From positions 1 to 64,000 of the forward strand of contig JAHAYJ010000029.1 in assembly GCA_018384375.1 (NCBI GenBank): a stretch of DNA of 64,000 nucleotides, in the 5' to 3' direction. The stretch is from Lachnospiraceae bacterium. Its GTDB lineage: Bacteria > Bacillota > Clostridia > Lachnospirales > Lachnospiraceae. Position numbers and translations under genes: made by a program. The notes under the pieces were generated by a model. That model was given only the letters and a program-made list of their open reading frames with translations. It was not told the origin of the DNA and did not search any database. Shown one piece after another: positions 7,135 to 43,240 of this stretch. The number at the start of each line of letters is the position of its first letter. Position 1 is the stretch's first letter.

Positions 7135-7230
7135 GTAACAGTTCTTCCAGAAATTTGTATAGTCATGGGCAAGTAATAGTATCTCTTATGGGTATATTTA
7201 CTTTCAGCGTAGATGACTTGTGATGTAACT

Positions 7231-7365
7231 GCCCCGCTTCTTTTCTGAAGCGGGGCACACTAATCTTTCCCAGGCTCTCTCGCCCCGCTTCTTTTCTGAA
7301 GCGGGGCATACTAATCTTTCCCAGGCCCTCTTGCCCCGCTTCCTTTTTCAGCACGGGGCACACGG
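7231..7365. repeat. Tandem 51-base repeats, each with a perfect GC-rich hairpin
   Basis: Two near-identical 51-base units (7231-7281, 7282-7332) and a diverged partial third (from 7333). Each starts with GCCCCGCTTC, six loop bases, and GAAGCGGGGC, a 10-pair perfect stem, followed by a unit containing CTAATCTTTCCCAGG. In the third the stem is decayed. The 51-base period is a multiple of 3 and creates a spurious repetitive minus-strand ORF (7163-7396), which I do not accept as a gene. They lie between divergent genes, directly before repeat element A. Confidence 0.85.
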
Positions 7366-7407: not shown

Positions 7408-7436
7408 TTCAAAAAAAACTTTCTTGATGATATAAT
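7408..7436 (+). promoter_or_regulatory. Promoter reading into repeat element A
   Basis: TTCAAA (7408-7413), a 17-base spacer and a perfect TATAAT (7431-7436). The -10 box abuts the first stem of the element, so a transcript would begin with the first hairpin. Confidence 0.55.
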
Positions 7437-7610
7437 AGGCGCAAAAGAAAACCAAGCGACACCGAAGGTGGCATTTGGTTTTCTTGCGCCTATTAACGAG
7501 CGAACTGGCTGCGAAGCAGGCTTTACCGCACCTGTGGTGCGGGTTTGCGAGTTTTAAACACTGCAAAAGTAACCAAGCGACACCGAAGGTGGTAACGGTG
7601 GTATTTGGTG
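7434..7610 (+). repeat. Dispersed structured repeat, copy A (candidate 5' leader element)
   Basis: Copy A of an element found again at 41757-42060. An outer stem joins AATAGGCGCAA at 7434 to its complement ending at 7494, continues through AGAAAACCAA with TTGGTTTTCT, and encloses CACC-GAA-GGTG (7460-7470). Next come CTGC-GAA-GCAG (7509-7519), CCGCACC-TGT-GGTGCGG (7526-7542), the phrase GGTTTGCGAGTTT, and a closing ACCAA..TTTGG unit around CACC-GAA-GGTG (7581-7591). It ends about 22 bases before the start codon of the DUF362 gene. It may be a cis-acting RNA leader or a REP/MITE-like element. Confidence 0.85.
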
Positions 7611-7631: not shown

Positions 7632-8747
7632 ATGATCCAGACTCTACAGCTCGTCCCCGAATATAAAGAAGAACTGATCTACCCTGCCATCTGCAAATCC
7701 ATGGAGGCTCTTGGCATTGAAAAGGAATTGCAGACAGATTTCAAGGTTGTGATAAAACCCAATATGGTCATGGCGAAAAGCCCTGATTTCCCTGTTACCA
7801 CTCATCCCCTTGTGGTGAAATGCGTTGCACGCTGGCTCAGAGAACACGGAGTGACAAATATCATCCTTGCCGAAAGCTCGGGCGGACTCTACAATGCGGA
7901 ACATATGAAAAATCTGTATCATGTCTGTGGCATGAAGCAGCTGGAACCGGAGGTTTCTCTGAATATGGATTTTTCCGCAAAAACTGTCAACTGTCCTGAT
8001 GGTTTTGCCAATCACTCCTTCCACATCATTACACCCATTGTGGAGGCTGACTACATCATCAATATCTGTAAACTGAAAACCCATGCCATGACTGGCTATT
8101 CCGGCGGTATCAAGAATCTGTTCGGTGTCATTCCCGGTCTTGAGAAGCCTCAGTTACACTATCGTTGGCCGGAAATTGAGGACTTTTCCAGAATGCTTGT
8201 GGAATTGTCACAGATAGTGGCACCTCAGCTCACTGTCATTGACGCCATCGATGCCATGGAAGGCAACGGTCCTACAGGTGGAACCTCCCATCCTCTTCAT
8301 ATGCTTCTTGCTGCCAAGGATCTCTATACGCAGGATTATTTTGCGGCGGGACTTATGGGGCTTGACCCTATGAAGATTGTCATGATTCGCCAGGCAATGG
8401 AAAAGGGCCTTGTAAAGCCTGAAGAAATGGAACTTAAGGGAGATCCGATTCCGGATACGTTGACTTCCTTTAAGCTTCCTGACACACAGAAGCTTGACTT
8501 CACCGGAACACTGCCCGGTTTTCTTAAAAAGCCCTTTTTGTGGATTGCCGGAAGACTCCTGAAATCCTATCCCCAGCTTGATCAAAAGCTCTGCATAGGC
8601 TGCGGGAAATGTGCGGAGAGCTGTCCTGCACACATTATTCAAATTAAGAATCGAAAGGCTGTATTTAAAAAGAAGGGCTGCATCTCCTGCTTCTGCTGTC
8701 AGGAGATGTGCCCCATGAAAGCCATCTCTGTAAAGAAGGCTTTATAG
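7632..8747 (+). CDS. DUF362 domain protein with a C-terminal 2x[4Fe-4S] ferredoxin domain
   Basis: A 371-residue protein. Residues ~35-280 match DUF362 (VVIKPNMVMAKSP, ILAESSGG, ICKLKTHAMTGYSGGIKN, VIDAIDAMEGNGPTGG). The C-terminus (~318-368) carries two ferredoxin motifs, CIGCGKCAESCP and CISCFCCQEMCP, each giving C-x2-C-x2-C-x3-C; the second has an unusual C-F-C-C. DUF362 proteins are thought to be iron-sulfur redox proteins of anaerobes; the reaction is unknown. There are no signal peptide or membrane segments. AAGGAA precedes the ATG. The gene is alone on the plus strand behind repeat element A. Confidence 0.85.
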   Translation: MIQTLQLVPEYKEELIYPAICKSMEALGIEKELQTDFKVVIKPNMVMAKSPDFPVTTHPLVVKCVARWLREHGVTNIILAESSGGLYNAEHMKNLYHVCGMKQLEPEVSLNMDFSAKTVNCPDGFANHSFHIITPIVEADYIINICKLKTHAMTGYSGGIKNLFGVIPGLEKPQLHYRWPEIEDFSRMLVELSQIVAPQLTVIDAIDAMEGNGPTGGTSHPLHMLLAAKDLYTQDYFAAGLMGLDPMKIVMIRQAMEKGLVKPEEMELKGDPIPDTLTSFKLPDTQKLDFTGTLPGFLKKPFLWIAGRLLKSYPQLDQKLCIGCGKCAESCPAHIIQIKNRKAVFKKKGCISCFCCQEMCPMKAISVKKAL

Positions 8748-41727: not shown

Positions 41728-41756
41728 TTGCACCTTCCCCGGAAATATTATAGAAT
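41728..41756 (+). promoter_or_regulatory. Promoter reading into repeat element B
   Basis: TTGCAC (41728-41733), 17 bases and TAGAAT (41751-41756). As at copy A, the -10 box is immediately before the AATAGGCGCAA start of the element. Confidence 0.5.
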
Positions 41757-42060
41757 GTAATAGGCGCAAAGGAAAACCAAGCGACGCCGTAGGCGGCATT
41801 TGGTTTTCCTGCGCCATTAACGAGCAAACTGTCTGCGCAGCAGACGGCTAAGCACCGCAGGTGCGGGTTTGCGAGTTTAAACCGCACGGCGGCTAAGCAC
41901 CGCAGGTGCGAGTTTGCGAGTTTAAACCGCACGGCGGGTAAAGGCCGCAGGTGCGGGTTTGCGAGTTTAAACCGCACGGCGGGTAAGGGCCGCAGGTGCG
42001 GGTTTGCGAGTTTTCTTCGCAAAGCAGACCAAGCGACGCCGTAGGCGGCATTTGGTTTTA
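41757..42060 (+). repeat. Dispersed structured repeat, copy B, with internal 45-base tandem units
   Basis: Same architecture as copy A: outer stem GGCGCAAAGGAAAACCAA with its complement, enclosing CGCC-GTA-GGCG (41785-41795); then GTCTGC-GCA-GCAGAC (41831-41845) and GCACC-GCA-GGTGC (41852-41864), then three 45-base units (41882-41926, 41927-41971, 41972-42016), and a closing ACCAA..TTTGG unit around CGCC-GTA-GGCG (42037-42047). The A-T pair in the CACC/GGTG stems of copy A is G-C here, in both end hairpins, so pairing is kept. It ends 25 bases before the malic enzyme start. The repeats create spurious coding on the minus strand (41687-42022). Confidence 0.88.
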
Positions 42061-42085: not shown

Positions 42086-43240
42086 ATGACCACAAATGAA
42101 AAGGCATTAATGCTGCATGAGCAATGGAACGGTAAACTGGAGACTGTTTCCAAAACCCCGGTGAAATCCCGTGAAGATTTGTCACTTGCCTACACGCCCG
42201 GTGTGGCAGAACCGTGTAAGGTAATTGCGCAGGATAAGGAGGCGGCTTACAAGTATACCATGAAGGCAAACACAGTGGCAGTTGTTTCCGACGGAAGCGC
42301 TGTTCTCGGTCTTGGAAATATCGGTCCCTATGCGGCTATGCCTGTTATGGAAGGGAAAGCTGTTCTCTTTAAAGAATTCGGTGGGGTCAACGCAGTTCCC
42401 ATTTGTCTGGATACCCAGGACACAGAGGAGATCATCAAGGCTGTCACCTATCTTGCTCCCGGCTTCGGCGGGATCAATCTGGAGGATATCAGTGCTCCCA
42501 GATGCTTTGAAATCGAAGAACGCCTGAAGGAAATCCTGGATATTCCTGTTTTTCATGACGATCAACATGGCACCGCAATTGTGGTTCTTGCCGGTATCAT
42601 CAATGCTTTAAAGGTAGTTGGAAAAAAGAAAGAGGATTGCCGCGTGGTCGTAAATGGTGCCGGAAGTGCCGGTGTAGCCATCACAAAACTGCTTCTGACC
42701 TATGGATTCCCCAACATCATCATGTGTGACAAGGTGGGAATCGTATCCAAGGATACAGAAGGTCTTAACTGGATGCAGAAGAAAATGACTGAAGTTACCA
42801 ATTTAAATAATGAAAAGGGCTCTCTTGCCGATGCCTTGAAGGGTGCCGATATCTTTGTGGGCGTCTCAGCCCCCGGTATTGTTTCCAAGGAGATGGTTGC
42901 ATCCATGAATAAAGATGCTATTCTCTTTGCCATGGCAAACCCGGTTCCCGAGATCATGCCGGACCTTGCCAAGGAAGCCGGGGCACGCGTTGTCGGAACC
43001 GGCAGAAGTGACTTCCCGAATCAGGTTAATAACGTAGTTGCTTTCCCCGGAATCTTTAAAGGTGCCCTGGAAGGCCGCGCTTCCCAGATCACTGAGGAAA
43101 TGAAGCTGGCAGCTGCAAATGCCATTGCTTCCCTGGTTCCTGATGAGGAATTGAACGAGGATAACATTATGCCGGAGGCTTTTAATCCACGCGTTGCCGA
43201 GCTTGTTGCAGAAGCAGTAAAGTCACACATAAGGAAATAG
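42086..43240 (+). CDS. Malic enzyme (oxaloacetate-decarboxylating malate dehydrogenase)
   Basis: Converts malate to pyruvate and CO2 with NAD(P)H. The 384-residue length is that of the short bacterial type without a phosphotransacetylase domain. Features: LAYTPGVAEPC with catalytic Tyr, KANTVAVVSDGSAVLGLGNIG, INLEDISAPRCFEIE, FHDDQHGTAIV metal ligands, and nucleotide-binding NGAGSAGVAIT. Cofactor preference is not clear. GTGAGG precedes the ATG. It follows repeat element B, which may control it, and stands alone or leads into the radical SAM gene 30 bases later. Confidence 0.93.
   Translation: MTTNEKALMLHEQWNGKLETVSKTPVKSREDLSLAYTPGVAEPCKVIAQDKEAAYKYTMKANTVAVVSDGSAVLGLGNIGPYAAMPVMEGKAVLFKEFGGVNAVPICLDTQDTEEIIKAVTYLAPGFGGINLEDISAPRCFEIEERLKEILDIPVFHDDQHGTAIVVLAGIINALKVVGKKKEDCRVVVNGAGSAGVAITKLLLTYGFPNIIMCDKVGIVSKDTEGLNWMQKKMTEVTNLNNEKGSLADALKGADIFVGVSAPGIVSKEMVASMNKDAILFAMANPVPEIMPDLAKEAGARVVGTGRSDFPNQVNNVVAFPGIFKGALEGRASQITEEMKLAAANAIASLVPDEELNEDNIMPEAFNPRVAELVAEAVKSHIRK

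Follow-up and report, generated by a model that had tools for sequence, protein, structure and literature searches.

The 64,000-nucleotide stretch of Lachnospiraceae DNA analysed here (the window) holds two structured elements, copy A at about 7431-7609 and copy B at about 41751-42060, each followed by a protein-coding gene in the same direction (Table 1). These places, and most of the anatomy, agreed with a preliminary description made from the sequence. A −10-like hexamer adjoins the 5′ stem in both copies (TATAAT at 7431-7436 in A, TAGAAT at 41751-41756 in B), and the start codons, placed within about 25 bases in the description, lie 22 nt (A, codon at 7632) and 26 nt (B, codon at 42086) past the last hairpin. 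Three terminator-like GCCCCGCTTC...GGGGC hairpins with 51-nt spacing are located just upstream of copy A (window 7230-7357).

Table 1. Features of the two elements and their downstream genes (window coordinates)
Feature	Position	Strand	Basis
Extended −10 box TGATATAAT, directly abutting copy A	7428..7436	+	sequence and ortholog comparison
Copy A hairpin 1: palindromic stem, conserved AAGCG/CATTT internal motif, C-GAA-G tip	7433..7495	+	
Copy A middle domain: CGAG-[CGAAC/GTTTG stem, two hairpins]-CGAG	7497..7551	+	
Copy A partial second hairpin 1, broken by TAACGGTGG	7563..7609	+	direct repeat 7450-7471 / 7571-7592
DUF362 and 4Fe-4S (ferredoxin) protein gene, downstream of copy A	7632..8747	+	Pfam
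Malic enzyme promoter TTGCAC-17-TAGAAT, directly before copy B	41728..41756	+	ortholog comparison
Copy B hairpin 1 (TAATAGGCGC...GCGCCATTA), C-GTA-G tip	41758..41819	+	
Copy B middle domain: CGAG...CGAG and 45-nt tandem modules with a short hairpin and GTTTGCGAG	41821..42013	+	
Copy B second copy of hairpin 1 top	42021..42059	+	
Malic enzyme gene, downstream of copy B	42086..43240	+	Pfam

Copy A carries the three C-GAA-G loops claimed for it, as CGAAG pentamers at 7463, 7512 and 7584, and copy B has seven CGNAG pentamers, two CGTAG and five CGCAG. A GGTTTGCGAGTTT phrase is common to both, once in A and three times in B, and these four places are its only exact matches in the whole genome. The end hairpins do change together, reading CACC-GAA-GGTG in A and CGCC-GTA-GGCG in B. 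The closing hairpin reported for both copies is present and repeats the top of hairpin 1, but that of A is broken by about nine extra bases. The 45-nt repeat in the middle of B occurs as a single module in the ortholog of the sister genome G025. Compared with dinucleotide shuffles, the fold of copy A gave a z of −5.4 (0 of 200 shuffles as good) and that of copy B a z of −5.9 (0 of 100).

The element had been presented as a two-copy structure, and this part of the description had to be given up. A hairpin-top pattern occurred at 16 places in the 3.1-Mb genome of the window and at none for its backward control. A search of this genome with R1, a covariance model of hairpin 1 built from eight of its own copies, yielded 13 elements, and further copies are present in relatives. 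One of the 13 is split across two contigs (end of G000:C31, start of C69), and several others lie near contig ends, as expected of repeats. R1 matches (E <= 0.001) were found in 23 of the 37 genomes of the genus, the other 14 having none; they were most numerous in the own genome (26), G025 (17), G060 (12) and G007 (9), with opposite-strand echoes and tandem matches counted. A pattern scan of named genomes revealed at least 117 matching stretches, and the 80 titles among the matches listed read Lachnospiraceae, Clostridium/Clostridiales, or just Bacillota or bacterium. Acetatifactor muris DSM 23669, Hominisplanchenecus faecis and a Kineothrix strain are among the carriers. A phage or plasmid origin was rejected; copy B matched 2 of 50,697 phage and 2 of 72,556 plasmid records, and the element is not mainly a phage feature. 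One stretch in viral contigs matched the pattern. Two fecal phage records (L383 and L384, unverified and unannotated) contain tandem units between matching TGATATAATGAGC or TGATGGAATGAGCGC repeats. No description of this repeat family was found in the open-licence literature consulted, and the portion of PMC5171806 dealing with transcription starts of a Lachnospiraceae relative does not describe it. The family is widespread in Lachnospiraceae and apparently undescribed so far.

The position of the copies relative to promoters and genes was then determined on 222 rows, comprising 130 pattern copies from named-genome loci and 92 copies from the R1 searches (13 from the own genome, 75 from other members of the genus, and 4 from G051 and G056 of other families). 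Opposite-strand echoes, secondary matches to the same element, the C69 half of the split copy, and the matches G014:C23, G003:C54 and G012:C169 were left out of the 92. Dropping 16 rows that were near an end or had a duplicate context gave 206 distinct copies. The mirrored 3′ flank served as control, and ORFs were called by a simple script. A −10-like hexamer (one mismatch at most, 9-24 nt before the core) was present just upstream of hairpin 1 in 127 of the 206 copies, compared with 7 mirrored, and the stop codon of an ORF of at least 80 aa lay 5-26 nt before the core in 40, compared with 1. Both features were found in 15 copies. The p-values of 4e-41 and 5e-12 are descriptive only; the copies are related by descent and some genomes are represented in both sets, so that these values overstate independence. 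The distance from the −10 hexamer to the core showed two peaks, at 16 and 20 nt. Among the 127 copies with a −10 hexamer, 82 have an extended TG, and a TTGACA-like hexamer peaks at a spacer of exactly 17 bp, where 36 match at least four of six positions, compared with 0 to 11 at the other spacers from 8 to 31. The positions that reach 0.6 or more upstream of the hexamer are one −35 position (T, 0.68), the TG (0.80 and 0.73) and the two preceding bases (about 0.6). Random orientation, which the preliminary description had said would count against its view, was not observed. The next ORF of at least 100 aa is in sense in 104 and in antisense in 10 of the copies with a −10 hexamer, and in sense in 58 and in antisense in 13 of those without one.

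This usual same-direction placement directly behind a promoter or a stop codon makes the element, on sequence grounds, probably the folded start of a message. The sense orientation and the location at the expected transcription start also favour our main rival explanation, a dedicated cis-regulatory RNA leader whose AAGCG/CATTT motif and CGAG domain would be bound in the nascent 5′ UTR by a trans factor controlling a regulon, and so does the conservation across species at groEL, thyA|folA and murA. The distribution does not suit such a leader in other respects. The downstream genes have no pathway in common, being DUF362 and malic enzyme by Pfam, and murA, rlmL-like, folA, rpsK and others by N-termini read by eye. 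R1 matches range from 0 to 26 per genome within one genus, opposite-strand echoes included. The palindrome often extends into the −10 region, which is expected to be untranscribed, and the copies that follow groEL in G003 and G023 sit before a terminator-like hairpin. A purely promoter-bound leader is further at odds with 25 of the 206 copies that stand behind a stop codon without a −10-like hexamer, and with 54 that fall in neither class. Taken with the pairing data below, a dedicated regulatory RNA appears unlikely.

We make no claim that copies adjoin terminators; 5′ T-runs were seen in 11 of 91 and 28 of 123 copies compared with 9 of 91 and 23 of 123 mirrored, counts that rest on partly wrong core positions. 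On a Lachnospira eligens megaplasmid (L385 2001-2145), a copy lies between the stop codon of an MBL-fold hydrolase gene and the start codon of hemZ.

Inspection of the family revealed a common plan. In hairpin 1, the lower stem is variable and the upper one A-rich/T-rich; then come the AAGCG/CATTT motif and a short stem, whose tip is usually GNA. What commonly follows is TTA(A/G)CGAG and then a further stem (CAAAC/GTTTG or AAAATC/GATTTT, for example), a pair of short hairpins and CGAG again. If the two CGAG sequences face each other, in copy A as in the family, two adjacent G.A pairs could result; in copy G028:C19, ordinary pairing would be possible at this position instead. Copies at L236, L237, L249 and L270 start with TAGCGAGG directly after a terminator-like T-run (a shorter run in L246), with a possible CGAG/CGAG within the stem of hairpin 1.

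Pairing was examined in 116 distinct copies taken from 128 rows. Covariation, the lack of which had been named as a second point against the element, was very strong. The N9-N17 pair, left free by the pattern, was Watson-Crick in 116 of 116 copies with all four pair types (shuffle mean 46), and the S10-S16 pair, where the pattern allows only G or C, was likewise Watson-Crick in all 116 (shuffle mean 77). The pair limited by the pattern to purines showed a G.A or A.G swap in 108 copies, A.A in 5 and G.G in 3. At the four variable pairs where G.U is possible, 5 G.U and 1 A.C were counted compared with 449 Watson-Crick pairs. Copies at the groEL and thyA orthologs show two-sided stem changes that keep pairing, which suggests that some copies are probably maintained by selection.

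Folding was asymmetric between the strands. In two sets, the sense strand of hairpin 1 folded better than the antisense strand by 60 to 23 and 100 to 26, and that of the downstream domain by 69 to 11 and 101 to 20, which we attribute to G.A pairs existing on one strand only. Both the covarying structure and the better sense fold are in line with a regulatory RNA. The rarity of G.U pairs at hairpin 1 is not; their frequency there showed no sense excess (6.0 vs 5.9% and 5.9 vs 6.0%, sense vs antisense), and in the downstream domain the excess was small (6.9 vs 5.4% and 6.1 vs 5.0%). The 139 terminator-like control hairpins gave 9.1 vs 3.7%, although selecting these hairpins by their sense fold raises sense G.U. 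A folded single DNA strand or template-switch repair fits the G.U scarcity better than a purely RNA-level constraint, and template-switch repair of quasi-palindromes could be an alternative source of it. A palindrome directly behind the −10 box and partly outside the expected transcript might also act in double-stranded form, as an operator or cruciform to which a repressor binds at the transcription start. For a duplex site, the strand asymmetry of folding would be unexpected, pairing is kept while the sequence varies, and copies lie behind stop codons as well, so this reading is highly improbable.

In 42 of 147 copies, compared with 2 for a reversed-query control, the beginning of hairpin 1 recurs as a 3′ piece that breaks off at varying points; the 147 used here each have a sense ORF (100 aa or more) that begins no more than 420 nt away, and the match threshold was 14 of 18. 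Such a piece might act as a strand-exchange translational switch, in which the partial copy of the 5′ strand of hairpin 1 would compete for the 3′ strand and hide or free the Shine-Dalgarno site. In favour, the 3′ partial repeat of the L. eligens hemZ copy reads AAAAGGAAGCAACG-ATG and may supply the Shine-Dalgarno site. At the same threshold 105 of the 147 copies have no partial copy, several have it distant from the start codon, and the many different points at which its 3′ end stops are what decaying tandem units would show. We therefore consider a switch very unlikely. Retro-copying from +1 was also rejected; by eye, the tail begins at a stem feature and at no fixed distance from the −10 box.

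We examined whether the promoters are present where the element is not. At the malic enzyme gene, element B is carried by the own genome and G025, and all 14 other orthologs examined are without it; a TTGC(A/G)C-17 bp-TATGAT-like (TANNNT) promoter is kept in 11 of these 14, the exceptions being G034, G010 and G005. Upstream of DUF362, 5 of the 10 element-free orthologs shown (G018, G012, G020, G035 and G001) have TGNTAAAAT at the place of the −10 box of copy A, followed directly by a short leader, and the other 5 have a different upstream region. At this gene in G020 (L379), a different long inverted repeat, GTAACTGTTCAGTAC...GTACTGAACAGTTAC, lies between promoter and start codon. At dapF, G033 alone of 13 genomes examined carries hairpin 1, and the A-run TGTGNTA context is the same in 8 of the 12 others. 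Copies precede murA in the own genome, where the copy is expanded, in G025 and in G023. TTTACA and TATA(A/C)T at promoter spacing are kept in 20 of the 20 others shown, G003 with a truncated copy among them. The promoter is thus present in many element-free relatives at four loci, and the element was therefore added to, or lost from, an existing promoter there. At murA, TATAAT-GTACGTTAGCGAG occurs exactly in 4 of the 20 and as near variants in others, which is the remainder expected after deletion of hairpin 1. This scar may be what an older element left behind when it was lost, and not an empty site, so that the locus may show both loss and gain. No gain of the element within a species was seen.

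Signs of mobility were also sought. The pattern TATAAT-nnn-CGTTA(A/G)CGAG occurred at 12 places, compared with 3 for the backward control. Five are murA leaders, and most of the seven in G028, G060 and G002 belong to a sister family, TGATATAAT-GAGCGTTAGCGAG-hairpin-GGCGAG. Copies reading TGATATAAT-GAGCGTTAGCGAG-AAGAATG were observed at L210, L217, L218, L219 and L220 of these three genomes, mostly behind −10-like boxes, and several copies of the main family also end in TGATATAAT. One sister-family copy apparently lies inside an ORF, again not as a pure promoter-leader would predict, between two ATGATATAATGA sequences 79 nt apart, and the flanking frames fit. No homolog of this ORF, and thus no intact form, was seen in the other 36 genomes. 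The main family showed no consistent target-site duplication, and neither a duplication nor terminal inverted repeats were seen by eye at A or B. Of the features of a MITE, terminal inverted repeats plus target-site duplication, we thus found the flanking ATGATATAATGA on both sides of that single sister-family copy.

Elements of the IS200/IS605 type transpose as a single strand. A mechanism of this kind would account for a single active strand, for hairpins close to the ends and for joining on the 3′ side of a short target. A Y1 transposase (PF01797) was rejected as partner of the present family. Both occur in 11 of the 37 genomes, the element only in 12, Y1 only in 10 and neither in 4 (p 0.19), and no R1 match was found in the available flanks, which cover 20 of the 33 Y1 matches. 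No transposase partner for the element was thus found. We also considered a more specific route, in which a mobile hairpin family would join the non-template strand directly behind the −10 box while that strand is single-stranded in the open promoter complex, so that transcription initiation itself would be the target and the insert would become the 5′ leader of the host mRNA; we hold this to be quite unlikely.

The family was compared with known systems. The statement that the element matches no known riboswitch or RNA agreed with the absence of Rfam matches at gathering score in the window. Relaxed matches (plant plastid, microRNA, plasmid antisense RNA, snoRNA and RsmY) were weak, scattered and far below that score, and were rejected. 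With the cis-regulatory leaders and riboswitches of Rfam the family shares a structured 5′ leader upstream of genes. Bacterial REPs, of the GTAG/CGTC type associated with TnpA-REP/RAYT, are described in the part of the literature covered here as small, mostly intergenic palindromes with short conserved tags and many copies per genome, features shared by the present family. In the sections of PMC3733652 considered, REPs are predominantly downstream of coding regions, and GTAG REP termini often provide the stop codon of the flanking ORF. The present family differs in being larger, modular and tied to promoter −10 boxes, in having no GTAG/CGTC tag, its conserved parts by inspection being AAGCG/CATTT and TTA(A/G)CGAG...CGAG, and in having no link to Y1 transposase. 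A closer architectural likeness is found in the BOX elements of Streptococcus pneumoniae, given in the relevant part of PMC3049150 as boxA-(boxB)n-boxC with a variable tandem middle module and predicted RNA stem-loops. Our family reads hairpin 1-(CGAG module)n-partial hairpin 1 and likewise has a variable tandem middle module. The likeness is one of architecture, and abutting −10 boxes are absent from that part of the BOX account.

Of the three possibilities raised in the preliminary description, a cis-regulatory RNA, a protein-binding DNA element or a REP/MITE family, a REP-like repeat is thus the one that the evidence favours most, and its usual outcome is likely to be a transcribed leader. 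We consider it probable that the elements form a REP/BOX-like family of small, modular, structured interspersed repeats that come to lie behind a −10 box or a stop codon and are then transcribed. Each unit has a 5′ hairpin with the AAGCG/CATTT motif and usually a C-GNA-G tip; a CGAG...CGAG domain, able to expand in tandem, often follows, and a truncated second unit is present in a minority of copies. Most copies start right behind the −10 box of an apparently genuine promoter, or behind a stop codon, usually in sense. We infer that the family spread as DNA, the folded sense strand being joined downstream of TAA/TATAAT-like targets. Once in place it would be transcribed, with the hairpin at or near the mRNA 5′ end or just past the stop codon, a place from which it might influence translation or the stability of the message.

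The usual picture of structured interspersed repeats is one of intergenic debris or of 3′ stabilisers. Here, a repeat family recurrently fills the few bases between the −10 box and the expected transcription start, and its example cautions against taking every conserved, covarying leader for a riboswitch. It raises the questions of whether transcription initiation guides insertion and whether 5′-terminal hairpins set mRNA lifetime in these bacteria. If mobile, the repeats would supply ready-made 5′ leaders within a major family of gut bacteria.
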